A DNA stretch of 64,000 nucleotides from Hydrogenophaga pseudoflava NBRC 102511 (GTDB taxonomy: Bacteria; Pseudomonadota; Gammaproteobacteria; Burkholderiales; Burkholderiaceae_C): positions 310,001 through 374,000 of the forward strand of contig NZ_BCWQ01000002.1 in NCBI RefSeq assembly GCF_001592285.1. The letters are read 5' to 3'. Positions 31,318 through 63,023 of the stretch are shown here, one piece after another; position 1 is the first letter of the stretch, and each line of letters starts with the position of its first letter. The translations under genes were made by a program, and so were the position numbers. The notes beneath the pieces were generated by a model, which was not told where the DNA came from, did not search any database, and worked only from the letters and a program-made list of their open reading frames with translations.

Positions 31318-31354
31318 GTCTTTTCTCCTGGGATGTGCGTTGCGAGCAAGACGC

Positions 31355-32341: not shown

Positions 32342-32370
32342 TGGTGTCTCCAGTGGGTTCACTTGTTGGT

Positions 32371-33303: not shown

Positions 33304-33309
33304 GGCCGC

Positions 33310-36322: not shown

Positions 36323-37000
36323 TCAGAAGTTGTAGAGCTCGAGCGTGCGTTCGCCCGCGGCGATGCGCTTGAGCACATCGGCCTCCTTGGCCTCGCGCTG
36401 CTCGGCCGCCTGCACCACCCCGGCCGCGCGCTCGCGCCCGATGACGACCACGCCATCGCGGTCGCCCAGCACCAGGTCGCCGGCGTGCACGGTGATGTCG
36501 CCCAGCAGCACCGGGTGGTTGACCCAGCCGCGCGCCAGGTGGTCCTTGCCGGTGCCGCGGATGCACAGCCCGGTCGCAAAGACCGGGAAGCCGATGCGCT
36601 CGAGCAGGTCGATGTCGCGCACGCCGCCGGCGATCACGAGGCCGCCCAGTCCGCGCACCTGTGCGGCGGTGGACATGATTTCGCCCCAGTAGCCGTAGTC
36701 GTGCACCTCGTTGGCGTAGACCACCAGCACATCACCGGGCTTGGCCACGTACAGGGCGCGGTGGATCCAGAGGTTGTCACCGCCGGGCGAATGGACCGTC
36801 ACGGCCGGGCCGCACAGCTTCATGGACGGGTGCATCGGCTTGATGGCGGGCGGCAGGGCCCCCACGCGACCACCGGCCTCGTGCACGGTGGCGCTGGGCA
36901 GGGCCCGGGCGCGCGCGATCAGGCCCGGGTCGACCCGGTCGATCACGTGGCGGATGGTCGGGAACTGCAGGGCCGGATCGTTCGCCGAGGACTCGCTCAT
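36323..37000 (-). CDS. 4-carboxy-4-hydroxy-2-oxoadipate aldolase-like (LigK/RraA family), copy 1
   Basis: A 225-aa RraA-fold protein. The catalytic Arg-Asp pair lies at R128-D129 (IAGGVRDIDLLERIG) and a WGEIMSTAAQVRGLGG segment precedes it, matching LigK/GalC HMG/CHA aldolases. It would split the C6 hydroxyacid into pyruvate and oxaloacetate. Start ATG 37000 overlaps the next gene's stop (ATGA). Of the three tandem copies this is the closest to true LigK. Confidence 0.84.
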   Translation of the reverse strand: MSESSANDPALQFPTIRHVIDRVDPGLIARARALPSATVHEAGGRVGALPPAIKPMHPSMKLCGPAVTVHSPGGDNLWIHRALYVAKPGDVLVVYANEVHDYGYWGEIMSTAAQVRGLGGLVIAGGVRDIDLLERIGFPVFATGLCIRGTGKDHLARGWVNHPVLLGDITVHAGDLVLGDRDGVVVIGRERAAGVVQAAEQREAKEADVLKRIAAGERTLELYNF

Positions 37001-37653
37001 GCGCCCTCCCGCGTCTGCAGCTGGTGGTAGCCCATGGCCTTGCGCGCCTCGCGCAGCGGGGTGCCGGCGCGCACCGCCTGGCGGATGGCTTCCTCGGCGT
37101 TGTGGATCGCCTCGGCCGTGTCCAGCACGTGGTCTTCGTGCTCCTTCGGGATCACGACCACGCCGTCGGCGTCGCCGCGCACGATGTCGCCGGGGGCCAC
37201 GCGGGCACCGCCGATGTTCACCGGCACCTGGGTCGCCTCGACCTGCACGCGGTCCTTGCCGGTGCGCATGTAGTTGTCGCGGCTGAAGACCGGGTACCCC
37301 AGCTCCAGGCACAGCGACACGTCGCGGTTGACGCCGTCGATCACCGTGCCGGCGATGCGGCGGTTGTGCGCCACCTCGGTCAGGATGTCGCCCCAGACGG
37401 TGGCGTTGTCCACGCCGCCGTTGTCCAGCACGATGACCGAGCCTTCGGGCACGTCATCGATGTAGTCACCCACGGTGCCCGAGGGCTTGCCGGCGGGGCC
37501 GTACAGCAGCGTCCAGGCGCGGCCGGCCATGCGGAATTCGGTCGAACGCGGCTTGATGCGGTGGCACTGTCCGTTGATGCCGCATTTGTCCAGCGCGTCG
37601 CTGAGGGTGGCGGTGTCCAGGCGCGCAGCGCGCGCCACATTCTTGTCAGTCAT
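36997..37653 (-). CDS. RraA-family protein, copy 2
   Basis: A 218-aa RraA/LigK-like protein keeping the Arg-Asp pair (R110-D111 in IDGVNRDVSL) and a VWGDILTEVAHNRRIAG segment. The RraA fold serves as HMG/CHA aldolase, oxaloacetate decarboxylase or RNase E inhibitor; context favours an aldolase or decarboxylase. It is translationally coupled to copy 1 and 10 bp downstream of copy 3. Confidence 0.8.
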   Translation of the reverse strand: MTDKNVARAARLDTATLSDALDKCGINGQCHRIKPRSTEFRMAGRAWTLLYGPAGKPSGTVGDYIDDVPEGSVIVLDNGGVDNATVWGDILTEVAHNRRIAGTVIDGVNRDVSLCLELGYPVFSRDNYMRTGKDRVQVEATQVPVNIGGARVAPGDIVRGDADGVVVIPKEHEDHVLDTAEAIHNAEEAIRQAVRAGTPLREARKAMGYHQLQTREGA

Positions 37654-37663
37654 GGCATTCCCC

Positions 37664-38341
37664 TTAGGCGGCCTCGGGCCGCAACATGAATTCGTAGTCC
37701 CGGCCCATCACCTCGGTGACCGGGCGCCCTGCCAGCAGGTCCTTGGCCATGCCCGCCTCGCGGCCGGCGATGCGCTCGGCAGCGGCGATCACCTCGGCCG
37801 CGCAGGCCGCCGGGATGAACACCACACCGCTGCCGTCGGCGATCACCAGATCACCGGGGTGCACGGTGACGCCACCGATGCACACCGGGCCGTTGACCTC
37901 GGCTTCTTCGACGCGTCCGCGCGCGGTGCGCGCGGTCAGGCTGCGGCAGTAGATGGGCAACTCGTAGGCGCGCGCTTCGTCGATGTCGCGCACCGGGCCG
38001 TCGGCCACCACGCCGGCGATGCCCTTGACCTTGGCGCCCAGCGACAGGATGCCGCCCCAGCTGCCCGCGTCGATGCCGGTGCGCTGCTCGACCACGATCA
38101 CCTCGCCCGCGGCGGCGAGCTCGATGGCGGTGGTGCCCAGGTGGCGCACCGGACCGTCGGATTTGGGCGCCTGGCCCGCGGGCACGAGGCGGTAGGTGAC
38201 CACGCGGCCGACCAGCTTGTGGGTGGTGGACTGCTGGGCCAGTCCGGTGGCGACCTGCTGGTCGATGCCCAGCCGGTCCAGCGCGTCGGACACCGCGCAG
38301 GCGTCCAAGTGGCGCAGGCGCGGCACAAGTTCTTGGTTCAT
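37664..38341 (-). CDS. RraA-family protein, copy 3
   Basis: A 225-aa RraA-fold protein with R118-D119 in DGPVRDIDEARA and a WGGILSLGAKVKGIAG segment. It is distinct in sequence from copies 1 and 2, so the array is an old duplication or assembly rather than a recent one. It follows the dppC-like gene by 31 bp. Confidence 0.8.
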   Translation of the reverse strand: MNQELVPRLRHLDACAVSDALDRLGIDQQVATGLAQQSTTHKLVGRVVTYRLVPAGQAPKSDGPVRHLGTTAIELAAAGEVIVVEQRTGIDAGSWGGILSLGAKVKGIAGVVADGPVRDIDEARAYELPIYCRSLTARTARGRVEEAEVNGPVCIGGVTVHPGDLVIADGSGVVFIPAACAAEVIAAAERIAGREAGMAKDLLAGRPVTEVMGRDYEFMLRPEAA

Positions 38342-40240: not shown

Positions 40241-40250
40241 GTCGGGTACC

Positions 40251-42337
<2,087 letters not shown>

Positions 42338-42341
<4 letters not shown>

Positions 42342-43986: not shown

Positions 43987-45204
43987 TCAGAGCATCGAGC
44001 GCCAGTCCTGCTCCTTCTCGACCACCATCGACTTCGGTGCGGTCTGCTCGTAGTCGATGGACGAATGAACGGCGAACTGCGGGGTCTCGCCCTTCATGAA
44101 CTGGCGCACGGCATTGGTCAGGCAGCGGCGCACCGCCAGCACCGCACCGTCACCGGCGCCCAGGTACTCCTGGGTGCGGTCGACGATGGGACCCATGCTC
44201 ATGATCACGGCGAAGTCCTCGGTCCCCAGCATCTGGGTGAAGCCGGTGAAGTGGCCGTTCTTCATGGCCTCGCGGTCCTGGCCCCAGTTGTCATCGGGGC
44301 TGCCCGGTGGCAGGGGCGGCCACGAGTCCGCGTCCTCGTAGTGGTGGGTCTTGTTCGGGATCAGCTTCTCGCTGTCCCGGTAGGTCATCTGCCAGTAGTA
44401 GATGTTCTCGTCGTCGATGGGCACCGAGAAGAAGATGCTGCCGCCCTTGACGTCGGTGCTGTTGGGCGAAACGATGCCGAACCAGGGCATGACGAAGCTG
44501 TTGGTGCGCACATAGGAACGCTCGTCCTTGAGCGCGCGCACCGCGGCGTAACGGAAGCCATAGGGCTTCTGCACCAGGTGGTAGACCGGCGCCATGTTGG
44601 CCGACGACAGCTCGATGTCGCCGAAGCCCACCAGCCAGCTCTGGTGCAGCACGCCCAGGTGGGCCGAGTCCATGGTGGTCTCCACCGCCTGCAGCCAGTT
44701 GGCGTTGACCTTCTGGCGGAAGACCACGAAGTTCTCGCGCGGCAGCCCGACAAAGGGCAGCGCCGGGAATTCGGGCACCTCGTCGCCCTGGCCCAGCCAG
44801 ACCCAGACAATGCCGCCCTCCTCGCGCACCGGGTAGTGCTTGAGCGGCACGTGCTTGCAGTACTCCACCTCGTTGTTGGGCTGGGTCGGCACGGCCACGG
44901 TCACGCCGTCGACCCGGAACTTCCAGCCGTGGTAAATGCAGCGCAGGCTGTTGTCCTCGTTGCGGCCGATGGCCAGCGAAGCGCCGCGGTGCGGGCAGGC
45001 TTCGTCGAAGAAACCCACGCGCCCGTCGGTGGAACGGAAGGCCACGTACTGGTGGCCGAACAGCTTGACGCGCAGGGGTTTGCCGTCCGCCTCCAGCTTG
45101 TCCGACAGGGCGGCGGGCACCCACCAGTGCTGGCGGATCATCCGGCCCATGGGCGCGTCGCCGCACACGCGTGTCAACAACTCGTTTTCTTCCTTTGAAA
45201 GCAC
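43987..45204 (-). CDS. Rieske non-heme iron oxygenase alpha subunit (phthalate dioxygenase/O-demethylase family)
   Basis: A 405-aa oxygenase. Rieske ligands: C70-P-H72 and C89-I-Y-H92. Mononuclear iron ligands: D179...H182...H187 in ETTMDSAHLGVLH. The N-terminus (ENELLTRVCGDAPMGRMIRQ) places it with phthalate 4,5-dioxygenase and LigXa-type biphenyl O-demethylase oxygenases, which need no separate ferredoxin when served by a phthalate-dioxygenase-reductase-type protein. A matching reductase lies at 53300-54268. The reaction is ring dihydroxylation or O-demethylation; which one is undecided. Confidence 0.86.
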   Translation of the reverse strand: MLSKEENELLTRVCGDAPMGRMIRQHWWVPAALSDKLEADGKPLRVKLFGHQYVAFRSTDGRVGFFDEACPHRGASLAIGRNEDNSLRCIYHGWKFRVDGVTVAVPTQPNNEVEYCKHVPLKHYPVREEGGIVWVWLGQGDEVPEFPALPFVGLPRENFVVFRQKVNANWLQAVETTMDSAHLGVLHQSWLVGFGDIELSSANMAPVYHLVQKPYGFRYAAVRALKDERSYVRTNSFVMPWFGIVSPNSTDVKGGSIFFSVPIDDENIYYWQMTYRDSEKLIPNKTHHYEDADSWPPLPPGSPDDNWGQDREAMKNGHFTGFTQMLGTEDFAVIMSMGPIVDRTQEYLGAGDGAVLAVRRCLTNAVRQFMKGETPQFAVHSSIDYEQTAPKSMVVEKEQDWRSML

Positions 45205-45270: not shown

Positions 45271-46062
45271 TCAGGCGGCGCGCTCGTCGGGGCGCTGTCG
45301 GCGGCCTTCGAAGAACTCGGAAATCCGGCGTGCGGAATCGACGCCGGCAGAGCGGGTCATGGCGGTGACCATGGTCTCGGCGAACAGGCCTTCGCCCATG
45401 GGCATTTCGGCGATGCGGCCGATGCCATTGATGATGGCGTAGTTGGTGGCCGGGGCGTTCTTGACGATGGACTGCGCCAGTTCACGGGCCTTGTCCAGCC
45501 CCGCACCGGGCGCCACGAGGTGGTGCGCCACCCCGAGGCGCAGCGCCTCCTGCGCATCGAACGAATGGCCGGTGAGCATCATCTCGATGACGCGGCTGCT
45601 GCCCAGCAACCGGGGGATGCGCACCGAGCCGCCACCACCCAGAAAAATGCCGCGCTGCCCTTCAGGCAGCTGGAAGAAGGCCGAACCCTCACACACCCGC
45701 ACATGGGTGGCCGCAGCCAGTTCGAAACCGCCACCGATCACGCCCCCCTTGAGCACGCTGACCACCGGCAGCTCGCCGAACTGCATCAGGTCGAACACGC
45801 GGTGCCACTGCCGCGAGCGGCGCATGCCCACCAGCACGTCGGGGCTGCGCTTGCTCATGAGCTCGAACAGGTCCAGGCCGGCGCAGAAGTGCTCGCCCTC
45901 TCCGTGCAGGATCACCGCGCGCGCACCCTCCAGACCCCGCAGGAAGCACGCTTCCAGCGCGTCCATGAGGTCGTCGTTGATGGCGTTGCGCTTGGTCGGT
46001 CGGTTGAGCTTGACCAGCGCGACGTCGTCTTCGCGCTCGATCTGCAGCAGGCTGTCTTCCAT
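45271..46062 (-). CDS. Enoyl-CoA hydratase/isomerase family protein
   Basis: A 263-aa crotonase-fold protein. The first oxyanion segment is EHFCAGLDLFEL, the second GGVIGGGFELAAATHVRV, and the acidic catalytic region is FQLPEGQRGIFLGGGG. It would hydrate (or hydrate and cleave) an arylacryloyl-CoA. It follows the feruloyl-CoA-synthase-like gene (56 bp gap), a pairing known from ferulate/coumarate catabolism (Fcs-Ech). ATG 46062 has AAGGA upstream. Confidence 0.87.
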   Translation of the reverse strand: MEDSLLQIEREDDVALVKLNRPTKRNAINDDLMDALEACFLRGLEGARAVILHGEGEHFCAGLDLFELMSKRSPDVLVGMRRSRQWHRVFDLMQFGELPVVSVLKGGVIGGGFELAAATHVRVCEGSAFFQLPEGQRGIFLGGGGSVRIPRLLGSSRVIEMMLTGHSFDAQEALRLGVAHHLVAPGAGLDKARELAQSIVKNAPATNYAIINGIGRIAEMPMGEGLFAETMVTAMTRSAGVDSARRISEFFEGRRQRPDERAA

Positions 46063-46118: not shown

Positions 46119-47984
46119 TCAGCCGGCGATGACGATCACGTCGTCCGCTGGCGTGGCGTCGTAGAGGCGCTCGACCGCATCGGCCCGGCGCGCCAGCACG
46201 GCGCGCTGGTTGACATAGCCCTTGTCGGTGATTTCGCCGGCGTCCATGGAGGGCGGCTGCGCCAGCAGCAGCACACGGGCCACCTTCATGCTGCTGCCCG
46301 TGTGGCGGGCGTTGTGGGCCCGCAGGGCGTCCCGCAGTGCGCCGCGCAGCGCTTCGTGTCCGATGGCGGCCTGCGCGTCGGCGATGCCGAACCGCTCGCG
46401 GAGAGCGACCGGGTTCGGCCACGCCAGCAAGGCGACGTATTCCCGGTCCGCACCCGCCACCACCACGTCGTTGAGCAGCGGGGCGGCCGCGTTGATGGCC
46501 TCGACCCGCAGCGAACCCACGCGCACGAAGATGCCCGACTGCAGCTTGAACTCTTCGGCCACCCGGCCCGCGAAGGCCAGACCCTCGTCGGGCTGGGCGC
46601 GATCCACAAAAGTCACCGCGTCGCCCATGCAGTAGTAGCCCTCGTCGTCGAACACCGAACTTGTCAGTTCGGGCTGGTCGAGGTAACCCGGCATCACCGA
46701 AGGGCCCTTGACGCGCACCTCGAAGCGGTCGTCCTCCAGCGGCACCAGCTTGATGGTCACGCCGGGCTGCGGCAGTCCCACCAGGCCGGCCCTCTCGCCC
46801 GGCCAGTGCACCACGGTGGTGGCGGCGCAGGTTTCGGTCGATCCGTAGCCGGCCACGAACGGGATGCGGCGGCCCAGGTGCTGCACGGCCAGGGCCTGCA
46901 CCCGCGAATAGATGGCATCGGGCAGCTTGGCCCCCGACGATGTGAGGCGGCGCAGCTGGCGGAAGAAGCTGCGCGCCATGTCGGCATCGCGCTCCAGGGC
47001 ATCCACCAGCATGGTGTAGCCGGCCGGCACGCTGCTGAAGCGGGTCGGCGAGATTTCGCGCAGGTTGCGCAGCGTGCGCTCGAAGTCGCCCGGCACCGGA
47101 CGGCCGTCGTCCAGATACAGGGTGCCGCCCTCTTCCAGCACGCTGTTGAAGATGGCCGTGCCGCCCGCCACGTGGCTCCAGGGCAGCCACTCCAGCAGCA
47201 CGGCCTCGGGCATGTCGGGCGTGCGCCGGACGGTGTGGGCGTGCATGGCCATGGTGGCGCACAACATGCCCTGGGTGATGGGCACCGCCTTGGGCACGCC
47301 GGTGGAGCCGGAAGTGAAAAGGTACTTGGCCACGGTGTCCGGCGTGATCGCGTCCACGGACGCCTGCACCGCAGCACCGACAGGGGTGGCGATCAGTTCC
47401 GACCAGGGCGTCGATGCCAGACCTTCCATCGGCTCGCTCACGTGCACCACCCGGACATCGGGCGTGAGCACGGCGCGCAGCGCCTTCTGGTAGCGCGCCG
47501 CCTCCTGCACCAGCACCACGGCCGGGCGGATGAGGGCCACCATGGCCCGCAGTTTCTCGTGGTCGTTGCTGAGCAGGGAGTACGCCGGCGTCACCGGCAC
47601 ATAAGGCATGCGTGCCTGCATGGCCGCCAGTTCGAACACCGCGTGCTCCAGCGAGTTGCCGCTGAGCACCATGACGTTGCGACCGGGCACGCCCAGGTCC
47701 AGCAGCCACTGGGTGACCGCATCCACCTGCGCGCCGGCTTGACCATATGTCAGGCCCAGCCAGCCGGCATGCCCCTCCCGGCGCTGCAGCAGCCAGTGGC
47801 GGTCGGGCCGGGACTGGGCATGGCGCCGCAGCACCGCGGGCAGGTGCGCCTCCACCGTTCCCAGCGGAACACGGCTGCGCATCAGCAGCGAGCCATCGGC
47901 CCGCTCTTCCGTGGCCACATCGCGCTCCAGAAATGGCAGGTCAAGGAAAGGGGTGCAGTGCACGGGGTCCTGGTGGGCATTCAT
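46119..47984 (-). CDS. Feruloyl-CoA-synthase-like AMP-forming CoA ligase, copy 1
   Basis: A 621-aa adenylate-forming ligase. Motifs: FTSGSTGVPKAVP (P-loop), YGSTETCAATT (A5) and ITDKGYVNQR, holding the C-terminal Lys. The ERADGSLLMRS segment near the N-terminus and the overall length match feruloyl-CoA synthases. ATG 47984 is chosen; a TTG at 48008 would start within 5 nt of the operator. The operator-like box at 48013-48025 lies 29 bp upstream, implying control by a MarR repressor. It is paralogous to 54956-56800. Confidence 0.87.
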   Translation of the reverse strand: MNAHQDPVHCTPFLDLPFLERDVATEERADGSLLMRSRVPLGTVEAHLPAVLRRHAQSRPDRHWLLQRREGHAGWLGLTYGQAGAQVDAVTQWLLDLGVPGRNVMVLSGNSLEHAVFELAAMQARMPYVPVTPAYSLLSNDHEKLRAMVALIRPAVVLVQEAARYQKALRAVLTPDVRVVHVSEPMEGLASTPWSELIATPVGAAVQASVDAITPDTVAKYLFTSGSTGVPKAVPITQGMLCATMAMHAHTVRRTPDMPEAVLLEWLPWSHVAGGTAIFNSVLEEGGTLYLDDGRPVPGDFERTLRNLREISPTRFSSVPAGYTMLVDALERDADMARSFFRQLRRLTSSGAKLPDAIYSRVQALAVQHLGRRIPFVAGYGSTETCAATTVVHWPGERAGLVGLPQPGVTIKLVPLEDDRFEVRVKGPSVMPGYLDQPELTSSVFDDEGYYCMGDAVTFVDRAQPDEGLAFAGRVAEEFKLQSGIFVRVGSLRVEAINAAAPLLNDVVVAGADREYVALLAWPNPVALRERFGIADAQAAIGHEALRGALRDALRAHNARHTGSSMKVARVLLLAQPPSMDAGEITDKGYVNQRAVLARRADAVERLYDATPADDVIVIAG

Positions 47985-48012
47985 GTTGAAACAGGGGCGA
48001 TTCGTCAAACAA

Positions 48013-48025: not shown

Positions 48026-48048
48026 CCTCACAACAAAAACGTGTTTCA

Positions 48049-48157: not shown

Positions 48158-49327
48158 ATGAGCATTCACGGCAAGGCCTGCATCGCCGGCATCTACGAAC
48201 ACCCGTTGCGTCGCGCCGAAGGCGTGTCGACCGCCCAACTGCACGCCGAGGTCGCGCTGGGCGCCCTGGCCGATGCCGGGCTGACCCTGGACGACGTCGA
48301 TGGCTACTTTTGTGGCGCGGACGCGCCTGGCCTGGGCGGCCTCACCATGGCCGAGTACATCGGGCTGAACCGCCTGCGGCACATCGACACCACCGAGTCC
48401 GGTGGCTCGGCCTACCTGCTGCACGTCAGCCACGCGGCACAGGCGATCGCGGCCGGCCACTGCAAAGTGGCGCTCATCACCATGGCCGACCGGCCCCTGG
48501 CCGCCGCGGCAGGCACGGCGCTGGCGGGCATTGACCGCAACAGCATGCCCAACCTGCCGTTCCAGGCCGCGGTCCCGCCGCCGCCCATGTACGGCTACGC
48601 CATGGTGGCGCGGCGGCACATGCACGAGTTCGGCACCACGCCGGAACAGCTGGCCTGGGTCCGCGTGGCCGCCTCGCACCATGCCCAGCACAACCCCCAT
48701 GCCGTGCACCGCTCGGTGGTGAGCGTCCAGGAGGTGCTCGACTCCCCGATGGTCGCCTCACCCCTGCGCCGGCTCGACTGCTGCGTCATGACCGACGGCG
48801 GCGGCGCCGTGGTGGTGGTGCACCCCGACATCGCCAGGACGCTCAAGCGACCGGTGGTCAAGGTCATCGGTGCCGGCGAAGCCGTCAAGCACCCCAATGC
48901 GGGCCAGATCGATCTCACCTGGTCGGCCGGTGTGCATTCGGGTGCCAAAGCGTTCGCGGAGGCCGGCATCACACCCGCCGACATCGGGTATGCGTCGCTG
49001 TACGACAGCTTCACCATCACCGTCATCGTGCAACTGGAAGACCTGGGCTTCTGCGCCAAGGGCGAGGGTGGGCGCTTCGTCATGGACGGCAACCTGATCG
49101 CCGGTCAGGGGCGCCTGCCCTTCAACACCGATGGCGGTGGCCTGTGCAACAACCACCCGGGCAACAAGGGCGGCATGACCAAGATCCTCGAAGCCGTGCG
49201 GCAGTGCCGCGGCGAAGCCCACCCGGCCGTCCAGGTCCAGCGGCGCGAGTTCGTGCTGGCCCACGGCACCGGCGGCAACCTGGCCAGCGCACACGCCGCG
49301 GGCACCCTCATCCTTCAAGCCGAATAA
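48158..49327 (+). CDS. Thiolase-like (SCP2/Ltp2-type) protein lacking the nucleophilic Cys
   Basis: A 389-aa thiolase-fold protein. The region where thiolases carry the reactive cysteine reads TTESGGSAY (Glu80-Ser-Gly-Gly) with no Cys; the later His motif is kept (CNNHPGNKGG) and the final Cys motif is replaced by AHGTGGN. This pattern is seen in SCP2-type lipid-transfer/Ltp2-like proteins, some of which act as CoA-dependent retro-aldolases together with a DUF35 partner. The next gene, 3 bp away, begins with a DUF35 domain. ATG 48158 has GGAG upstream. Classical thiolase activity is therefore doubtful; aldol-type C-C cleavage is the main alternative. Confidence 0.82.
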   Translation: MSIHGKACIAGIYEHPLRRAEGVSTAQLHAEVALGALADAGLTLDDVDGYFCGADAPGLGGLTMAEYIGLNRLRHIDTTESGGSAYLLHVSHAAQAIAAGHCKVALITMADRPLAAAAGTALAGIDRNSMPNLPFQAAVPPPPMYGYAMVARRHMHEFGTTPEQLAWVRVAASHHAQHNPHAVHRSVVSVQEVLDSPMVASPLRRLDCCVMTDGGGAVVVVHPDIARTLKRPVVKVIGAGEAVKHPNAGQIDLTWSAGVHSGAKAFAEAGITPADIGYASLYDSFTITVIVQLEDLGFCAKGEGGRFVMDGNLIAGQGRLPFNTDGGGLCNNHPGNKGGMTKILEAVRQCRGEAHPAVQVQRREFVLAHGTGGNLASAHAAGTLILQAE

Positions 49328-49330
49328 GCG

Positions 49331-50998
49331 ATGGCGACCTCTCGAAACACCCTTCCCGCCCCCGTTCTCTTTCCCGGCGACGAGCCGTTCTGGGACGCCG
49401 CCCGCGAGGGCCGGCTCATGGGCAAGCACTGCCCCGCCTGCGACCGCGTGCACTACTACCCACGGATTCACTGCCCGTTCTGCGGCCATGGCCAGACGAA
49501 CTGGCGCGAGCTCTCGGGCCGGGGTCGTGTCTATTCGCACTCCATCGTCGAGCGCAGCCCCCGGCCCACCGCGCCGGCCATCATCGAACTGGAAGAAGGC
49601 ATTCGCCTGAGCAGCGTGGTGGTGGACGCCGATGTCCACGCCCTGGCCATCGGCGACGCCGTGACGCTGCGCTTCCTGCCCACCCAGGACGGCCCGCCGG
49701 TGCCCGGCTTCACCACGGTGCACGCCGAGCTGGCCCGCGCCTATTCGGCGCAGGCGCTGCGGGCGCTGAACACGCCCTCCTCCCCGCAGATCGACGCGCT
49801 CACGCAGGTGGCGGTGATCGGTTCCGGTCACATGGGGGTGGGCATCAGCCTGGCCTTCCTGCAGGCCGGTCTGGAGGTGCAACTGGTCGACCAGACCGAT
49901 GCTGCGCTGGACGCCGCAATGGAGCGCATCCGCGACACGCTGGAACATGAACGCGGCAAGGGGCGCATCGACGAGCAGGTCCGTGACGAGCGCCTGGCCC
50001 GCCTGCGCGTGTCCACCGATCTCGCCTCCGTGGCCTCCGCCGGCCTCATCGTCGAGGCCATCTGGGAAGACATGGCCGCCAAACGCGAGCTGTTCGCCCG
50101 CCTGGACGGGCTGGCGCGGCCCGACGCCATCCTGGCGACCAACACGTCGACACTGGACGTGACCGAGATCGCCCGCGCCACCCGCCGGCCCGGCGCGGTG
50201 GTCGGTCTGCACTTCTTCAACCCGGCCCAGGTCATGCGCCTGATCGAGATCGTCCGCACGCCGCTCACCGACGCCCCCACGCTGCAGGCCGCGCAAGCCC
50301 TGGCGGCCCGCATCGGCAAGACCGGCATCGTCGTGGGCGTGTGCGACGGCTTTGTCGGCAACCGGCTGATGATCGTGCGCGAACGCCAGGCCGGCCGACT
50401 GCTGCTGGAAGGCTCGCTGCCCGAACAGGTGGACCGCTTCCTGCGGGAGTTCGGCCTGCCCATGGGCACCTTCGAACTGCAGGACATGGCCGGCGGCATC
50501 GCCCTGATGCACCGCTCCCGCCAACGCCGGGGCGAACGCGACTGGCTGATCCAGCAGCTCTTCGAGCGCGGGCGCCTGGGCCTGCGCGCCGGCCGTGGCT
50601 TCTACCGCTACGAAGCCGGCAAGCGCCGCCCCATCAGCGACCCCGAGGTCACGGCCCTCATCGAGGAAGCCTCGGCGCTCGAAGGCCTGACACGCCGGCG
50701 CATCGACACCGCCGAGCTCCACGACCGGCTGATCCTGCCCATGGTCAACGAAGGCGCCAAGCTGATCCAGGAAGGCATGGTGGAGCGCGCCAGCGACATC
50801 GATCTGATCTGGCAGCTCGGCTACGGCTGGCCGCAATGGAAAGGCGGGCCGATGCACTACGCGGACCAGCTGGGCGCCGCCCAGGTGGTGGCCCGCCTGC
50901 GCGCGCTCCAGGACGTGCATGGCGATGCCTTCAAGCCGGCCGACCTGCTCGTGGAACTGGCCGCGTCCAGCGGCCGACTGACACCCCCTGCCCACTGA
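49331..50998 (+). CDS. DUF35 (Zn-ribbon/OB-fold) fused to 3-hydroxyacyl-CoA dehydrogenase
   Basis: A 555-aa two-part protein. Residues 1-135 form a DUF35 module with a rubredoxin-like zinc ribbon (C34, C37, C48, C51) and an OB-fold. From about 157 on is a full 3-hydroxyacyl-CoA dehydrogenase: VAVIGSGHMGVG (Rossmann), GLHFFNPAQVM with the catalytic His, GFVGNRL, and two C-terminal helical domains. In FadB the dehydrogenase is preceded by an enoyl-CoA hydratase domain; here DUF35 takes that place. DUF35 proteins normally partner thiolase-fold enzymes such as the one encoded just upstream, so a physical complex that oxidises and then cleaves a beta-hydroxyacyl-CoA is inferred. Confidence 0.85.
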   Translation: MATSRNTLPAPVLFPGDEPFWDAAREGRLMGKHCPACDRVHYYPRIHCPFCGHGQTNWRELSGRGRVYSHSIVERSPRPTAPAIIELEEGIRLSSVVVDADVHALAIGDAVTLRFLPTQDGPPVPGFTTVHAELARAYSAQALRALNTPSSPQIDALTQVAVIGSGHMGVGISLAFLQAGLEVQLVDQTDAALDAAMERIRDTLEHERGKGRIDEQVRDERLARLRVSTDLASVASAGLIVEAIWEDMAAKRELFARLDGLARPDAILATNTSTLDVTEIARATRRPGAVVGLHFFNPAQVMRLIEIVRTPLTDAPTLQAAQALAARIGKTGIVVGVCDGFVGNRLMIVRERQAGRLLLEGSLPEQVDRFLREFGLPMGTFELQDMAGGIALMHRSRQRRGERDWLIQQLFERGRLGLRAGRGFYRYEAGKRRPISDPEVTALIEEASALEGLTRRRIDTAELHDRLILPMVNEGAKLIQEGMVERASDIDLIWQLGYGWPQWKGGPMHYADQLGAAQVVARLRALQDVHGDAFKPADLLVELAASSGRLTPPAH

Positions 50999-51005
50999 AA
51001 CTCCG

Positions 51006-52826
51006 ATGCCCACCTACCAAGCGCCCACCGCCGACTGGCAATTTCTCCTGCACGATGTGCTCCGCATCCAGGACCACGCCCACCTGCCCGGCTTTGCCGA
51101 CCTGGCCCCGGAATTCACCGGCCAGGTGCTCGATGCCGCCGCCACCTTTCACCAGGAAGTCCTGCACCCGCTGAACATGGCGGGCGACGCCGAGGGCGCC
51201 CGCATGGTCGACGGCCAGGTGCGCACACCCGCCGGCTTCTCCGAGGCGTGGCAGGCCTACCGCGAGGCGGGCTGGCACCGGCTGAGCCTGCCCGAGTCCC
51301 TGGGCGGCGCCGGGCTGCCCCCCGTGATGGGCGTGCCCGTGAGCGAGCTGCGGGCCGCCACGGGCCATTCGTTCTCGATGTACAGCAGCTTCTGCGCACC
51401 CACCGCGAGCATGCTGTCCAAGCTGGCACCCGACTGGGTCCGCACCCACGTGGTGCCCAAGGTGTCCGCCGGCGAGTGGACCGCCACCATGTGCATGACC
51501 GAGCCGCAGGCGGGCACCGATCTGCGCCAGCTGAACACGCGGGCGGTGCGCCAGCCCGACGGCAGCTGGCGCATCACCGGCCGCAAGATCTTCATCTCGG
51601 GCGGTGACCACGACCTGACCGACAACATCGTCCACATCGTGCTGGCCAAGGTGCCGGACGAGCACGGGCGGCTGGAACCGGGCCTGGCGTCGGTCAACGT
51701 GTTCCTGGTGTCCAAGCGGATGATCGACCCGGCCAGCGGCCAGCTGGGCGCGGCCAACGGCGTCACCGCGGTGTCGATCGAACACAAGATGGGCATCGAA
51801 GGCAGCGCCACCTGCGTGCTGGAGTTCGACGACGCCGTGGCCTGGCGGATCGCGGACGAACGCCGCAGCGGCTCCTCGGCCAACATGGCCCCGATGTTCC
51901 TGCTGATGAACTACGCCCGCGTCAGCACCGCCATGTCCGGCGTGGGCTATGCCGAGATCGCCTGCCAGAACGCCGCCGACTACGCCCGCGAGCGCCTGTC
52001 CGGCCGGGCCGGCGACAAGCCACGCCAGCCCGGCAGCGTGGCCGATCCGATCATTGCCCACGCCGACGTGCGGCGCCTGCTGCTGGAGTCGCGCGCCTTC
52101 TGCGAAGGCGCCCGCGCCGGCGCCATGCGGGCCGCCCTGTGGCAGTCGCTGGCCGAACATTCCACGGACGCCGGCGAGAAGGAGCGCGCCGCCGACCTGC
52201 TGGAAGTGCTCACGCCCGTGATGAAGGCCTTCTACACCGACCGCGGGTTCGATGCCACCGTCGCCTGCCAGCAGGTGCTGGGTGGCCACGGCTACATCAA
52301 GGACTACGGCATCGAGCACTTCGTGCGCAACGCGCGCATCGCCCAGCTGTACGAAGGCGCCAACGGCGTGCAGGCCATGGACCTGGTGCAACGCAAGCTG
52401 ACCGCCCATGGCGGCCGCGCCCAGCGCGCCTTCCTCGACACCCTGCAGACCTCCGTCGCGGCGCTGGAAACCCGCGCCGACCTCGCGGAGTTCGTCCGCC
52501 CGGTGCAGGCGGCCCATGCGCGCATCGGTGAAACCCTGCGCAGCCTGGACCTGCAACGCACCGAGCGCCCCGACGCCATCGCCGGGGGTGCTTACGACCT
52601 GCTCACCGCCATCGGCATCCTGTACGTCGGCTGGAACTGGCTGGAGATGGTCGCCGCCCTGCAGGGCGAGGCGCCCTGCGAACACGCCACCCCCGCCATG
52701 CGGCAGACCAAGCCCGTGCTGGCACGGGTGTGGATGCAGCGCCAGATGCCCCTGATCGACAGCCTGTGCGACCGGATCGCCTCCGGCAACGACAGTCTGG
52801 TGGCCTTGCCGGACGCGCTGGTCTGA
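51006..52826 (+). CDS. Acyl-CoA dehydrogenase (about 600-aa DmdC/FadE5-like class)
   Basis: A 606-aa flavoprotein of the long acyl-CoA dehydrogenase class with an extra C-terminal domain. MCMTEPQAGTDLRQL, ITGRKIFISGGDHDLTD and CQQVLGGHGYIKDYGIEHFVRNARI are conserved FAD and catalytic segments. It would introduce the alpha-beta double bond into a saturated acyl-CoA, for example an arylpropanoyl-CoA, giving the substrate for the hydratase at 45271. It is 7 bp after the fusion gene. Confidence 0.88.
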   Translation: MPTYQAPTADWQFLLHDVLRIQDHAHLPGFADLAPEFTGQVLDAAATFHQEVLHPLNMAGDAEGARMVDGQVRTPAGFSEAWQAYREAGWHRLSLPESLGGAGLPPVMGVPVSELRAATGHSFSMYSSFCAPTASMLSKLAPDWVRTHVVPKVSAGEWTATMCMTEPQAGTDLRQLNTRAVRQPDGSWRITGRKIFISGGDHDLTDNIVHIVLAKVPDEHGRLEPGLASVNVFLVSKRMIDPASGQLGAANGVTAVSIEHKMGIEGSATCVLEFDDAVAWRIADERRSGSSANMAPMFLLMNYARVSTAMSGVGYAEIACQNAADYARERLSGRAGDKPRQPGSVADPIIAHADVRRLLLESRAFCEGARAGAMRAALWQSLAEHSTDAGEKERAADLLEVLTPVMKAFYTDRGFDATVACQQVLGGHGYIKDYGIEHFVRNARIAQLYEGANGVQAMDLVQRKLTAHGGRAQRAFLDTLQTSVAALETRADLAEFVRPVQAAHARIGETLRSLDLQRTERPDAIAGGAYDLLTAIGILYVGWNWLEMVAALQGEAPCEHATPAMRQTKPVLARVWMQRQMPLIDSLCDRIASGNDSLVALPDALV

Positions 52827-52845: not shown

Positions 52846-53271
52846 ATGTCCATCGCTGCCCGCGGCTTTTTCTATGTCCAACAGGTCGAGCAGCAAGCCC
52901 GGCGGGTGCTCGACGAGTGCCTGCAGGGCGAAGGCCTGACCGCCGGCCAGTACATGGCGCTGAGCCTGGTGGTGCACCACGAGCCGGTCTCCTCGGCCGA
53001 CCTGGCCCGACGGGCCCGCATGACCGCGCAATCCATGGGTGAGTTCATCCGCACGCTCGAAGCCAAGGGTCTGGTGGAAAAGCGGGTCGACGCCGGCAGC
53101 CGGCGCTCCCTGGCCCTGACGTCCACCACGGTCGGCCGCAAGTTGCTGGTCCGCAGCGACGCCAAGGTCAACGAAGCCGAGCGCCTGTTCTTCGACTGCC
53201 TGAGCGGCGAGGAAAACGCCCACCTGCGGTTGCTGCTCAGCCGCCTGAGAAAACTGCGCACCCCGCAATAG
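52846..53271 (+). CDS. MarR-family transcriptional regulator, copy 1
   Basis: A 141-aa winged-helix regulator starting MSIAARGFFYVQQVEQ. The DNA-binding region is SSADLARRARMTAQSMGEFIRTLEAKGLV with a wing VDAGSRRSLALT. It resembles copy 2 (54314-54754) across the whole length. One or both are the likely readers of the three TAAGGTnACCTTA boxes; the effector may be a CoA thioester, as for FerC/CouR-type MarR proteins. It is the fourth gene of the thiolase operon. Confidence 0.87.
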   Translation: MSIAARGFFYVQQVEQQARRVLDECLQGEGLTAGQYMALSLVVHHEPVSSADLARRARMTAQSMGEFIRTLEAKGLVEKRVDAGSRRSLALTSTTVGRKLLVRSDAKVNEAERLFFDCLSGEENAHLRLLLSRLRKLRTPQ

Positions 53272-53299: not shown

Positions 53300-54268
53300 A
53301 TGACCGATCCCACTGCTCTGCGCCTGCGGGTGCACTCCATGACACGGCAGGCGCCCGCGATCCTGAGCCTCGTGCTTGAGTCGATCGACCACGCGCCCTT
53401 GCCGGCGGCGGCGCCCGGTGCCCATCTGGACCTGCACCTGGCGCCCGGCCTGGCACGCAGCTACTCCATCGTCGGACAGCCCGGGCGGCCCAGCCGTTAC
53501 GAACTGGCGATCGCACGGGATGCCAAGAGCCGCGGGGGGTCCCGTTTCGTGCACGAGAAGCTGCGCGTCGGCGACGAACTGACCGCTTCGGCCCCACGCA
53601 ACCTGTTTCCCCTGGACGAGAGCGCGCCCTTCAGCGCGTTGCTGGCCGGCGGCATCGGCATCACGCCGATCTGGTCGATGGTCCAGCGCCTGGAGTCGCT
53701 GCAAAAGCCCTGGCTTCTGGTGTACGCGGCCCGCAGCCGGGCACACGCCGCCTATCTTGAGGAGATCGAAGCGCTGGCGCGCCACACCCGCGTGGGGCGG
53801 CTGCACTTGCACTTCGATGATGAGCACCAGAACCAGCCGGTCGACCTGCGCGCGGTGCTGGCCGACGTGGGCCACGACGCCCACCTGTATTGCTGCGGAC
53901 CACAACCCATGCTGGCCGCCTACGAGGCCGCCACGGCCGACCGGCCACCGGCGCAGGTGCATCTGGAACGCTTCGGCGCCGATGCGGGCACGGGCCCCGC
54001 CTCGGGCTTCACGGTGGTGCTGGAACGCTCGGGCCAGAGCCTGCAGGTGCCACCGGACCGGTCCATTCTGGACGTGGTGCTGGAAGCGGGCATCAACGCC
54101 CAGTACGGCTGCATGCAGGGCTCCTGCGGACTGTGCGAAACACCCGTGCTCAAGGGTGTTCCCGAGCACCGGGACCACCTGCTGGCCGACAGCGTGAAGG
54201 CGGGCAACCAGGCGATGCTGATCTGCTGCTCGCGCAGCTGCACACCCGAGCTGGTGCTGGACCTCTAG
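53300..54268 (+). CDS. Phthalate-dioxygenase-reductase-type flavin/[2Fe-2S] reductase
   Basis: A 322-aa reductase. FMN-binding domain (ARSYSIVGQPG), NAD-binding domain (GGIGITPIWSMV, YCCGPQPML), and a C-terminal plant-type [2Fe-2S] ferredoxin domain with YGCMQGSCGLCET and a last Cys in LICCSRS. This domain order is that of phthalate dioxygenase reductase and VanB. It would pass electrons to the Rieske oxygenase at 43987-45204, although the two genes are 8 kb apart on opposite strands. Confidence 0.9.
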   Translation: MTDPTALRLRVHSMTRQAPAILSLVLESIDHAPLPAAAPGAHLDLHLAPGLARSYSIVGQPGRPSRYELAIARDAKSRGGSRFVHEKLRVGDELTASAPRNLFPLDESAPFSALLAGGIGITPIWSMVQRLESLQKPWLLVYAARSRAHAAYLEEIEALARHTRVGRLHLHFDDEHQNQPVDLRAVLADVGHDAHLYCCGPQPMLAAYEAATADRPPAQVHLERFGADAGTGPASGFTVVLERSGQSLQVPPDRSILDVVLEAGINAQYGCMQGSCGLCETPVLKGVPEHRDHLLADSVKAGNQAMLICCSRSCTPELVLDL

Positions 54269-54313: not shown

Positions 54314-54754
54314 TCAGCCTTCCTGCTGCTGCCGCTGCTGCACCGCGTTGCGGATCCGGCTCAGCGCATGCCGCAGGGTGGCCAGCTCCTCCGGCTGCAG
54401 GCAGCTGAAAAAGTCGCGCTCTGTCTGGTCCACGGCGGCCTCGCAGCGCATCAGCACCGCCCGCCCCTCGGGCGTGGTGGAGATGAGCAGCACCCGGCGG
54501 TTGTTGGGGTCGTCGCGGCGTTCCAGCCACCCCTTGTATTCGAGCGTCTTGACGAACTCCCCCATCGACTGGGCGGTCTTGCGCGCCAGGCGCGACAACT
54601 CGGCGGAAGACAGCGGTTCGTGGTGGGCCACCAGGCTCATCACCAGGTACTGTCCGGCCGTCATGCCATGGGGCGCCAGCACTTCCTCCAGCCGTTGCTG
54701 AACCAGCTGCTCCACTTGCTGGATGTAAAAAAATCCTCGGGTATTGATGGCCAT
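54314..54754 (-). CDS. MarR-family transcriptional regulator, copy 2
   Basis: A 146-aa winged-helix regulator from ATG 54754 (MAINTRGFFYIQQVEQ), chosen because it aligns with the start of copy 1; an upstream ATG at 54898 would add 48 residues with no similarity. HTH: SSAELSRLARKTAQSMGEFVKTLEYKGWL. It is divergent from the second CoA-ligase gene, and the 201-bp region between them holds one MarR-type box and another perfect inverted repeat, suggesting autoregulation. Confidence 0.86.
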   Translation of the reverse strand: MAINTRGFFYIQQVEQLVQQRLEEVLAPHGMTAGQYLVMSLVAHHEPLSSAELSRLARKTAQSMGEFVKTLEYKGWLERRDDPNNRRVLLISTTPEGRAVLMRCEAAVDQTERDFFSCLQPEELATLRHALSRIRNAVQQRQQQEG

Positions 54755-54859
54755 CCGGGTCACTTCTTGTCTTGTTGCACGCCCAGACGGGTCGGTAAGC
54801 CCCGCCAGAAGGTCTGGGGCATGGTAGCGCGCTTCTCGCCTGCGGCTCCCGCCCATCAT

Positions 54860-54878
54860 ATATAAAGCGTGTTTATAT
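54860..54878. promoter_or_regulatory. Perfect 7-5-7 inverted repeat in the copy-2 MarR promoter
   Basis: ATATAAA-GCGTG-TTTATAT lies 106 bp before the MarR ATG and 43 bp from the box at 54921. Its outer arms (TATAAA/TTTATA) match the outer arms of that box, so it may be a second, weaker or regulator-specific site. Confidence 0.5.
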
Positions 54879-54920
54879 TTATCATCAGGGTTTTCCATAG
54901 CATTTTTTGGCCGAGATTTA

Positions 54921-54955: not shown

Positions 54956-56800
54956 GTGCCTGCTCCCTTTCGCCCCCTGCCCTTCCTCGAACGCAGTGTC
55001 GCCCTGGACGAGCGCGCCGACGGCACGCTCATCGTCCGCTGCCCGGTCCCCCTGAAGGCGCTCGAGCCCCATATCCCGCACCTGCTGCGGCGCAACGCGC
55101 AGCAGCGCCCCGACCATGTGTGGATGGCGCAGCGGCGAGGCGCGGAGCGCGCCTGGCAACGCCTGACCTACGGCGCAGCGACACCCCAGGTCGATGCGGC
55201 CACGCAATGGCTGCTGGACCTGCAGCGCCCGGGCGCGACCGTGATGGTGCTCAGCGGCAACTCGCTCGAACACGGCATGCTGGAACTGGCCGCCATGCAG
55301 GCGCACATGCCGTACGCCCCCATCACACCGGCCTACGCCGCGATGGCCGGCGACCTCTCCCGCCTCAAAGCCATGGCCGCGCTGCTCGAACCCGCGGTGG
55401 TGTTCGTGCAGAGCGCCCGCGCGCTGGAACCGGCCATCCGGGCCCTGGGCGACGACGTCTGGGTGGTCTGCGTGCAGGACCCCATCGACCGCCCCCGGCT
55501 GATCACCTGGGACCGTCTGGTGCAGACCCCGGTGACGGCCAGCGTGGGCGCATCGGTCGCCAGCATCACGCACGACACGGTGGCCAAGTACCAGTTCACG
55601 TCGGGATCGACCGGCACGCCCAAGGCCGTCATCGTGACCCAGGGCATGCTGTGCACCGCCATGGCCATGACCTCGCAGATGGTGCAGTGGGGCGACGACC
55701 GCCCGGAAACCGTGCTGCTGGACTGGCTGCCCTGGAGCCATGTGGCCGGCGGCCACGCGGTCTTCAACGGGGTGCTGGAAGACGGTGGCACGCTCAACAT
55801 CGACGATGGCCGGCCGACGCCGGCCGACTTCGCCGAGACCCTGCGCAACCTGCGCGAGATCTCGCCGGTCCGCTTCAGCGGCATGCCGGTGGCCTACGCC
55901 ATGCTCGCCGAGGCCCTGGAACACGACGAGGTGCTGGGCAAAAGCTTCTTCAAGAACCTGCGCCGGCTCACCTATTCCGGCGCGCGCCTGCCCGACGCCG
56001 TGCATGCCGCGCTCCAGCGGCACGCCGTGCGCTACACCGGGTTTCGCATCCCCCTGGTCTCCGCCTACGGCTCCACGGAGACCTCGGCGGCCGTCACCTA
56101 CGTCTACTGGGCCACCGAGCGCACCGGCCTCATCGGCCTGCCGCACCCCGGTGTGGAGATGAAGCTGATCCCGCTGCCGGACGGTGAGCGCTACGAGGTG
56201 CGCGTGCGCAGCCAGGCGGTCACGCCGGGCTACCTCAAGCAGCCCGAACTGACGGCACAGAGCGTGGACGAAGAAGGCTTTTTCCGCATGGGCGATGCGG
56301 CCAGCTTCGTGGACCGCACCCACCCCGAAGAGGGGCTGGCGTTCGCGGGCCGCGTGGCCGAGGAATTCAAGCTGCAGACCGGTGTGTTCGTGCGTGTGGG
56401 CAGCCTGCGCGTGACCCTGCTGGACGCGACCGCGCCGCTGCTGCAGGACGTGGTGATCACCGGCGCCGACCAGTCGTATGTGGGTGCCCTGGCCTGGCTG
56501 AACATCGCGGCCTGCCGCGAACTCACCGGACTGCACGACGCCGACGTGCGCACCCTGGCAGCCCACCCCCTGCTGCGCCAGCAGCTGACCGAGAAGCTGC
56601 GCGCCCACAACACGCGCCACCCGTCCAGCAGCCTGCGTCTGCGCCGCCTCTGCCTGCTGCAGGCGCCGCCGTCCATCGAACAGGGCGAAACCAACGACAA
56701 GGGCTACATCAACCAGCGCAAGGTGCTCGAGAACCGCCGCGACCGGGTGGACGCCCTCTACGCAGACCACCCCGATGAAAACGTGCTGGTGATCGACTGA
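54956..56800 (+). CDS. Feruloyl-CoA-synthase-like AMP-forming CoA ligase, copy 2
   Basis: A 614-aa ligase paralogous to 46119-47984 over its full length. Motifs: FTSGSTGTPKAVIVT, YGSTETSAAVTYVY and TNDKGYINQRKVLENR. The start is a GTG with no clear ribosome-binding site, 18 bp after the operator, so initiation may be on a very short leader. The aligned N-terminus (LPFLERSVALDERADGTL) supports this start. It activates a cinnamate-like or benzoate-like acid; the exact acid is unknown. Confidence 0.87.
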   Translation: MPAPFRPLPFLERSVALDERADGTLIVRCPVPLKALEPHIPHLLRRNAQQRPDHVWMAQRRGAERAWQRLTYGAATPQVDAATQWLLDLQRPGATVMVLSGNSLEHGMLELAAMQAHMPYAPITPAYAAMAGDLSRLKAMAALLEPAVVFVQSARALEPAIRALGDDVWVVCVQDPIDRPRLITWDRLVQTPVTASVGASVASITHDTVAKYQFTSGSTGTPKAVIVTQGMLCTAMAMTSQMVQWGDDRPETVLLDWLPWSHVAGGHAVFNGVLEDGGTLNIDDGRPTPADFAETLRNLREISPVRFSGMPVAYAMLAEALEHDEVLGKSFFKNLRRLTYSGARLPDAVHAALQRHAVRYTGFRIPLVSAYGSTETSAAVTYVYWATERTGLIGLPHPGVEMKLIPLPDGERYEVRVRSQAVTPGYLKQPELTAQSVDEEGFFRMGDAASFVDRTHPEEGLAFAGRVAEEFKLQTGVFVRVGSLRVTLLDATAPLLQDVVITGADQSYVGALAWLNIAACRELTGLHDADVRTLAAHPLLRQQLTEKLRAHNTRHPSSSLRLRRLCLLQAPPSIEQGETNDKGYINQRKVLENRRDRVDALYADHPDENVLVID

Positions 56801-58854: not shown

Positions 58855-58894
58855 ACACGCGCCCTGCGTGCCCGCCCTGTCACGAATGCCTGTC

Positions 58895-62222: not shown

Positions 62223-62232
62223 AAGTCCCCCC

Positions 62233-63018: not shown

Positions 63019-63023
63019 ACACC

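Follow-up and report, generated by a model that had tools for sequence, protein, structure and literature searches.

The closest described relatives of the system reported here are the steroid aldolase Ltp2-ChsH2 and the bile-acid aldolase CtSal-CtShy, in which an enzyme of the thiolase fold works with a DUF35 partner. In the Shy-Sal complex, as described in passages of PMC11321319, the partner attaches to the thiolase-fold enzyme through its DUF35 part and catalyses the preceding step; CtSal, according to excerpts of PMC12329534, has a Gly at the position of the thiolase Cys and is hence incapable of thiolysis. Krishna et al. reported in 2010 (PMC2954200) that DUF35 homologues occur as fusions with thiolases, with hot-dog dehydratases and with Rossmann-fold domains akin to the short-chain acyl-CoA dehydrogenases; the passages of that paper on fusions do not name the 3-hydroxyacyl-CoA dehydrogenase (3HCDH) among the partners. 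Here we describe, in a stretch of 64,000 nucleotides from Hydrogenophaga pseudoflava NBRC 102511 (contig NZ_BCWQ01000002.1, positions 310,001 to 374,000, referred to as the window), a gene pair in which a Cys-less thiolase-fold protein (THL) is followed by a DUF35 domain fused to such a dehydrogenase (FUS). The architecture is real, conserved and rare, and it is kin to the complexes of DUF35 with thiolase-fold lyases.

48158..49327, + strand: THL, Cys-less thiolase-fold protein of 389 residues, PRK08142, with Gly83 at the Cys site, Y282-D-S-F, Cys330 and H333-P-G

49331..50998, + strand: FUS, DUF35 (zinc ribbon plus OB fold) fused to a two-lobed 3-hydroxyacyl-CoA dehydrogenase, 555 residues

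We tentatively favour a reading in which DUF35 holds THL and FUS together, and the aryl beta-ketoacyl-CoA formed by the dehydrogenase undergoes a Tyr-dependent retro-Claisen cleavage by THL, perhaps freeing the acid.

The two genes are 3 bp apart. FUS contains the Pfam domains zf-ChsH2 (residues 21-52), OB_ChsH2_C (58-115), 3HCDH_N (159-336) and 3HCDH in two stretches, the zinc ribbon cysteines being C34, C37, C48 and C51. It has the NAD domain and the two C-terminal lobes of a FadB-type dehydrogenase, together with S273, H294, E306 and N344, which we take to be its catalytic Ser, His, Glu and Asn. Because residues ~147-546 align in phmmer with the dehydrogenase half of FadB/MFE1 enzymes (closest PDB entry 6ium, 330 bits), DUF35 occupies the place of the FadB hydratase domain; the N-terminal enoyl-CoA hydratase domain of the FadB alpha subunit is absent, and the protein scores under all FadB/FadJ cut-offs. 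Its AlphaFold2 (AF2) model had a pLDDT of 90.3. Pfam and phmmer thus bear out a preliminary description of this locus, which had placed a DUF35 domain and a complete two-lobed dehydrogenase 3 bp downstream of THL, where FadB has its hydratase.

When contigs were scanned with THL, keeping the best 80 of 568 relatives so that the figures are lower bounds, the 23 closest loci (L070-L092, 71-88% THL identity) all had DUF35 fused to the dehydrogenase, although in L088 a contig end cuts the fusion inside the dehydrogenase. With the window, the proposed association of a DUF35-3HCDH fusion with a Cys-less thiolase therefore holds in 24/24 clade loci, and its repetition in 23 other loci means that it did not arise by chance. 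The zinc cysteines 34/37/48/51 and S273, H294, E306 and N344 are invariant in all 24, indicating that the dehydrogenase has been kept functional. The other 57 loci (64-68% identity) comprise 56 with DUF35 in a separate frame and one, L103, that ends at the gene; no dehydrogenase match was found near these stand-alone-DUF35 thiolases at E 1e-8. In the tree, which included 13 of the 24 fusion rows, the fusions form one clade (support 100/99). Their hosts include Comamonadaceae, Burkholderiaceae, Alcaligenaceae, Bradyrhizobium, Tropicibacter and one metagenome-assembled genome labelled actinobacterium.

Elsewhere the fusion is rare. It occurs in at least 2 of 399 family genomes, this one included, and in at least 1 of 398 phylum genomes, that one being this genome, both counts being lower bounds that scored at most three candidates per genome; none of the 243 plasmid records with a match covers 80% of FUS. 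The second family genome (G614) repeats locus L082: its loci L166/L190 show the same identities and almost certainly are L082, and the neighbour counts below exclude the duplicate L190, leaving 23 loci. A class-wide search with the DUF35 part of FUS gave matches in 24 of 369 genomes. Three further DUF35 hits in frames of 510-546 codons were rejected as 3HCDH fusions, since at those three loci DUF35 and the thiolase-like gene do not share a frame and nothing matched the dehydrogenase; other long frames at stand-alone loci proved to be out-of-frame readings of the thiolase gene. An apparent second, separate DUF35 or thiolase-like gene lies in the flank of two fusion loci (L070:20510-21073, - strand, and L072, family F1, 412 residues). 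Searches of the open-licence literature listed no paper on a DUF35-3HCDH fusion, and passages of PMC6307125, PMC12442348 and PMC3610893 are silent on it; the author of the preliminary description likewise knew of no such system, related DUF35 fusions having been known since 2010 (as listed in passages of PMC2954200).

No other protein of the module is as well conserved as THL, which shows 71-88% identity across loci compared with 49-66% for FUS. This, and the invariance of its active-site set, argues against THL being a non-catalytic scaffold, or a condensing or acyl-transfer protein, beside a dehydrogenase that works with another thiolase. Activity-less thiolase-fold proteins such as PhlA do exist in DUF35 complexes (described in part of PMC2954200), but no second conserved thiolase was present among the annotated module genes, and we regard such a role as very improbable.

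The 389-residue form of THL begins at the ATG at 48158, and relatives align from its residue 1; upstream, at 48041, there is a GTG in the same frame. Pfam detected Thiolase_C_1 (160 bits), with Thiolase_N under its cut-off, and the protein belongs to NCBIfam subfamily PRK08142 (644.2 bits against a curated cut-off of 462). Its AF2 model, built from a 39-row alignment (pLDDT 87.6), had CtSal as its top VIA-align match (9myr; Z 51.8, root-mean-square deviation 2.0, 371 residues aligned), followed by 4u4e (Z 49.8) and 6ok1 (Z 49.6), then by DUF35-partnered or SCP2-type thiolases and thiolase-like proteins (Z 48.5-41), with classical thiolases at about 35. The column of the nucleophile can be located from 7yvy and from L002 of this genome, two aligned thiolases that have the Cys: the Cys of 7yvy aligns with Gly83, the second Gly of an ESGG motif. 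This column holds 59 Gly, 2 Cys and 1 Ala in the 62-row alignment, and Gly83 is Gly in 97/97 rows of the PRK08142 clade (24 fusion and 73 stand-alone DUF35), which therefore lacks the thiolase Cys at this site. The family assignments, the fold match and the Gly83 alignment together agree with the preliminary description in giving THL a thiolase fold without the nucleophilic Cys. That description had also put ESGG in the place of the Cys, and here it stands in part: the Cys is absent, but since the Cys of 7yvy falls on Gly83 it is this Gly, not the Glu, that takes its position. Glu80 lies three residues before Gly83 and is Glu in 24/24 fusion rows and 38/73 stand-alone rows; that offset, and its presence in just 23 of 62 alignment rows, rule it out as a direct substitute for the Cys.

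In place of the His/Asn of the thiolase HDxF/NEAF motif, THL has Tyr282, invariant in 97/97 clade rows, which aligns with the catalytic bases Tyr302 of Sal and Tyr294 of Ltp2 (Sal motif positions were taken from excerpts of PMC12329534). A Tyr base in YDxF/Y combined with Gly at the Cys site, Gly83 aligning with Gly89 of Sal, is the pattern of Ltp2/Sal-type aldolases, and their DUF35 partner is also seen here, by its sequence, in the adjacent gene, fused to the dehydrogenase. Kinship with these aldolases, suggested earlier, is thus upheld by the Tyr base, the Gly, the partner and the top structure matches. Two other positions, each conserved in 96/97 clade rows, depart from them: Ser284 aligns with Cys304 of Sal and His296 of Ltp2, and His333, a GHP-like His as in thiolases, with Gln352 of Sal and Tyr344 of Ltp2, so that neither known proton donor (Tyr344 in Ltp2, Cys304 in Sal) is kept. 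Judged by these alignments, THL has an aldolase base with a proton-donor arrangement of its own.

These residues frame the main rival of the retro-Claisen reading, a retro-aldolase in which THL would split a 3-hydroxy-3-arylpropanoyl-CoA into aryl aldehyde and acetyl-CoA, the dehydrogenase serving another chain or a side reaction. The shared Tyr and Gly, the best fold matches (9myr, 4u4e and 6ok1), the DUF35 partner and the occurrence of the same residues in the stand-alone-DUF35 clade all speak for it, as does the precedent of ipfDE, a thiolase-type gene pair to which passages of PMC9195938 ascribe the retro-aldol removal of an aryl side chain from ibuprofen. Against it, an aldolase would lose its substrate to a dehydrogenase that is fully conserved, and Ser284 and His333 stand where Cys304 or Tyr344 would be expected as proton donor. 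We consider this reading possible but doubtful; the preliminary description had allowed for either kind of cleavage.

A second rival turns on Cys330, which lies in the His333 loop, three residues before the His of HPG, and is invariant in 97/97 clade rows, being Ser in the 4u4e group. An atypical thiolase would convert beta-ketoacyl-CoA and CoA to aroyl-CoA, via Cys330 or without a covalent intermediate, in keeping with the GHP-like His and with a dehydrogenase that yields beta-ketoacyl-CoA. However, the nucleophile has changed from Cys to Gly and the thiolase His/Asn to Tyr in every clade row, and no 4HBT thioesterase was found among the 66 small proteins of the 24 loci, in the first 25 of their 29 Pfam families. 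Ordinary Cys-based thiolysis is unlikely, and the atypical form is, in our estimate, distinctly improbable.

Twelve positions separate the fusion and stand-alone clades. Eight of them fall within residues 111-143, which in the THL model link strand 104-111 to helix 143-158. By secondary structure this segment matches, in a descriptive comparison, the loop reported to form the pocket lid of Sal (excerpts of PMC12329534), a loop that is also variable; with eight of the twelve positions in a lid-like loop, the clades may have parted over their substrates rather than over chemistry.

The earlier proposal that THL and the DUF35 protein form one physical unit gains support by analogy. In two other family genomes DUF35 is fused N-terminally to a YDAF/HPG Cys-less thiolase-like protein (L031:985-2655, - strand, and L033:832-2655, + strand), which argues for THL and FUS as a physical pair. 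Since the DUF35 partner of Shy-Sal performs the preceding step, THL should by analogy receive the product of the dehydrogenase, and it is probably held next to the enzyme that feeds it.

The genes around the pair point to aromatic side chains as substrates.

51006..52826, + strand: ACAD, acyl-CoA dehydrogenase of the ~600-residue class, best PDB match 6ijc, in 18/23 other loci

46122..48008, - strand: FCS1, feruloyl-CoA-synthase-like AMP-binding ligase, PRK12582, divergent from THL, in 22/23 other loci

45274..46062, - strand: ECH, enoyl-CoA hydratase family, PRK08150, best PDB matches 3hin and 4izb, in 21/23 other loci

43987..45204, - strand: Rieske oxygenase with a LigXa_C domain, candidate aryl O-demethylase, in 13/23 other loci

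53300..54268, + strand: ferredoxin-NAD(P) reductase with a 2Fe-2S domain, likely Rieske partner, in 10/23 other loci

52846..53271, + strand: MarR-type regulator by weak family matches, with a relative in 16/23 other loci

54314..54898, - strand: second MarR-type regulator, by weak family matches

54956..56800, + strand: FCS2, second feruloyl-CoA-synthase-like ligase, 59% identical to FCS1

The neighbour counts use identity thresholds that we set and cover the 23 other loci, several of which are cut by contig ends. ACAD starts 7 bp past the end of FUS. ECH scored 234 bits with 3hin and 198 with 4izb, compared with 79 and 76 for the hydroxycinnamoyl-CoA hydratase-lyases 6l3o and 2vss, and both Glu at the catalytic positions are kept. 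Hydratase-lyases typically lack one of these two Glu. By their family matches, the ligase, hydratase and acyl-CoA dehydrogenase that travel with the fusion would make up a full set for side-chain beta-oxidation; together with the dehydrogenase of FUS they provide a route to an aryl beta-ketoacyl-CoA, for which THL is the natural last step. In Agrobacterium fabrum, ferulate is taken by ligase, hydratase, dehydrogenase and then a 'beta-keto-thiolase' to vanillate (as described in part of PMC7797058). The aryl side chain that the preliminary description had suggested as substrate is accordingly supported by FCS, the hydratase, the acyl-CoA dehydrogenase and the LigY-type neighbours described below, and from these gene families the pair appears to trim the side chain of plant-derived aromatic acids.

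A steroid pathway was rejected, no steroid cluster being found among the scanned neighbours; the Rieske protein scored 59.6 bits with the methylsterol monooxygenase model (cut-off 600), and its 3-ketosteroid hydroxylase matches were weak. Neighbours in the stand-alone clade showed no common pathway, the top family being CoA_transf_3 with 8 of 79 proteins (79 of 112 proteins, from 25 of 57 loci). A peptide/nickel-type ABC transporter (SBP_bac_5, permease and ATPases; window 38376-43945, - strand), with relatives in 4-5 other fusion loci, possibly serves aromatic uptake. The genome holds a second feruloyl-CoA-synthase-like/hydratase pair (C1:355062-357666, 40%/44% identity), near which the genome-wide matches included no thiolase-like protein or aldehyde dehydrogenase.

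In the reaction sequence that we favour, THL and FUS would act as one complex through DUF35 and remove C2 units from aryl-propanoyl- or aryl-propenoyl-CoA esters. After activation of the acid by FCS, the action of ECH, preceded by ACAD where the chain is saturated, would lead to 3-hydroxy-3-aryl-propanoyl-CoA, and the tethered dehydrogenase would oxidise this to the aryl beta-ketoacyl-CoA. THL would then cleave the ketone without an acyl-cysteine, with Tyr282 as base and His333 (or Ser284 or Cys330) as acid. In the most economical form water would add to the aryl ketone, giving a gem-diol that is cleaved as Ltp2 and Sal cleave the beta-alcohol, so that the products would be acetyl-CoA and the free aromatic acid, with no aldehyde. 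While the domains, residues, conservation, linkage and predicted fold described above are observed, the complex, the order of steps, the cleavage chemistry and the substrate are what we infer from them. Since retro-aldol cleavage needs the beta-alcohol that the dehydrogenase removes, cleavage of the ketone is the least forced way of keeping both activities.

The accessory genes bear on this choice. A hidden Markov model built from eight aldehyde dehydrogenases of the genome itself gave no match in the 24 loci (484 kb), a point against the retro-aldolase. Together with the lack of a 4HBT thioesterase match it is weakly consistent with the free acid as direct product. As proof against aldolysis we demoted it, being weak evidence when only 1/3 Sal control loci has an aldehyde dehydrogenase within ~10 kb.

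That control is one of several points that weigh against the retro-Claisen reading. At a density of 15 aldehyde dehydrogenase genes in 4.5 Mb, about 1.6 would fall within 484 kb by chance, and the small proteins were called with a crude gene finder, 25 of their 29 families being covered. Ltp2 and Sal, the characterised relatives with a Tyr base, are retro-aldolases that act on the alcohol, not the ketone, and the presence of the same catalytic set in the stand-alone clade, where no dehydrogenase match was found, means that the chemistry need not depend on oxidation. CtSal with a Ser at the place of Cys304, the residue that THL has there, is inactive, and the authors of that work judged the flexible Shy-Sal tethering inconsistent with direct channelling (both in excerpts of PMC12329534), which weakens the argument from the tether. 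By its position and conservation Cys330 could, moreover, be a reactive thiol.

Further genes in the window suggest what may become of the ring.

34244..35242, - strand: LigY-type hydrolase, matching the OH-DDVA meta-cleavage-compound hydrolase 5vn5/6e6i over its full length (516 bits, E 3e-154)

35289..36284, - strand: LigB-superfamily extradiol dioxygenase, candidate LigZ by a superfamily-level match, adjoining the LigY-type gene

36997..38341, - strand: two RraA-like genes (4-carboxy-4-hydroxy-2-oxoadipate aldolase superfamily) by family matches

In the 5,5'-dehydrodivanillate gene set of the window the LigY match is strong, and those of LigZ and LigXa are at superfamily or domain level. LigY-type and LigB-type genes lie near the fusion in 6/23 other loci at 72-79% identity (LigY-type at least 75%), L076 has weaker copies (47/42%), and RraA-like is the commonest Pfam family (11) among the 66 small proteins. 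In SYK-6, LigXa, LigZ and LigY, with a MarR regulator, act on 5,5'-dehydrodivanillate (passages of PMC6874591 and PMC12997858). Three Advenella loci (L085-L087) instead have, near the fusion, relatives of the 3-hydroxybenzoate 6-hydroxylase-like, gentisate dioxygenase-like and fumarylacetoacetate-hydrolase-type genes found at 30-34 kb of the window. The 5,5'-dehydrodivanillate and gentisate lower pathways both begin from the free aromatic acid, which fits hydrolytic cleavage, and an acid freed by THL may go on to the window's enzymes of Rieske, LigZ-like and LigY type. A 5,5'-linked dimer of diferulate type is a candidate substrate; a literature search showed no occurrence of diferulic acid among the matches listed. 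At its most specific, THL would be a non-thiolytic retro-Claisen hydrolase on a thiolase fold, its aldolase-derived Tyr/His site cleaving a hydrated aryl beta-ketoacyl-CoA to free the acid and strip cinnamate-type side chains, those of 5,5'-linked ferulate dimers included, without an aldehyde; in this full form we think it unlikely.

The window also contains, at 30127-34203, probable 3-hydroxybenzoate 6-monooxygenase-like, TctC receptor, gentisate 1,2-dioxygenase-like and fumarylacetoacetate hydrolase-like genes, and at 57883-63962 a second aromatic cluster with a TctC receptor, a BphC-type extradiol dioxygenase, a 3-(3-hydroxyphenyl)propionate hydroxylase-like FAD enzyme and an acylating acetaldehyde dehydrogenase domain.

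If the proposed pairing is true, DUF35 would be an adaptor for coupling various enzymes of beta-oxidation to Cys-less lyases of the thiolase fold, and the PRK08142/4u4e group would gain testable chemistry outside steroids. The retro-Claisen form, if right, would be chemistry that one does not expect of the thiolase fold. The pair would also suggest a route from ferulate dimers of plant cell walls to 5,5'-dehydrodivanillate, useful for converting lignin.

Set beside known systems, the pair looks like an unusual variant of the steroid-degrading complexes. With CtSal-CtShy (9myr; excerpts of PMC12329534) it shares the fold (Z 51.8), the Gly at the Cys site, the Tyr of YDxF/Y and a DUF35 partner carrying a further enzyme domain behind it; that domain is a MaoC hydratase there and 3HCDH in FUS, Cys304/Gln352 correspond to Ser284/His333, and a Cys3His zinc ribbon in a steroid setting contrasts with four Cys in an aryl-acid neighbourhood. 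Ltp2-ChsH2 (6ok1) likewise shares the fold (Z 49.6), the YDxF Tyr base and DUF35 but has Tyr344 and His296 in place of His333 and Ser284, and a different tethered enzyme. PRK08142 proteins with stand-alone DUF35 have the same subfamily and catalytic positions, whereas their DUF35 is unfused and no dehydrogenase match adjoins it; 4u4e, a putative thiolase of Sphaerobacter thermophilus and the solved sequence closest to THL (265 bits), shares YDSF and HPG but has Ser at the place of Cys330. FadB/MFE1 enzymes (6ium, 1wdk) have the dehydrogenase half, both C-terminal lobes and the catalytic residues in common with FUS, with a hydratase domain in place of DUF35. The partners of FadB are typically Cys thiolases, whereas that of FUS is Cys-less. 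The benzoylsuccinyl-CoA thiolase BbsAB (7pyt/7pxp) combines a thiolase fold with a DUF35 subunit, BbsA, at a lower fold match (Z 45.8/45.5) and as separate subunits; its substrate is an aryl beta-ketoacyl-CoA. The Pseudomonas fcs-vdh-ech cluster resembles the window in its arylpropanoate (phloretate) genes, its acyl-CoA dehydrogenase pcd and the thiolase-family PFLU3297, but it has a vanillin dehydrogenase and a hydratase-lyase, and passages of PMC12642758 report no fusion. Ferulate beta-oxidation in A. fabrum (Atu1416-1417-1415-1421) follows the same order, with C-C cleavage to an aromatic acid, but by separate proteins, the passages of PMC7797058 on this route reporting no DUF35 fusion.

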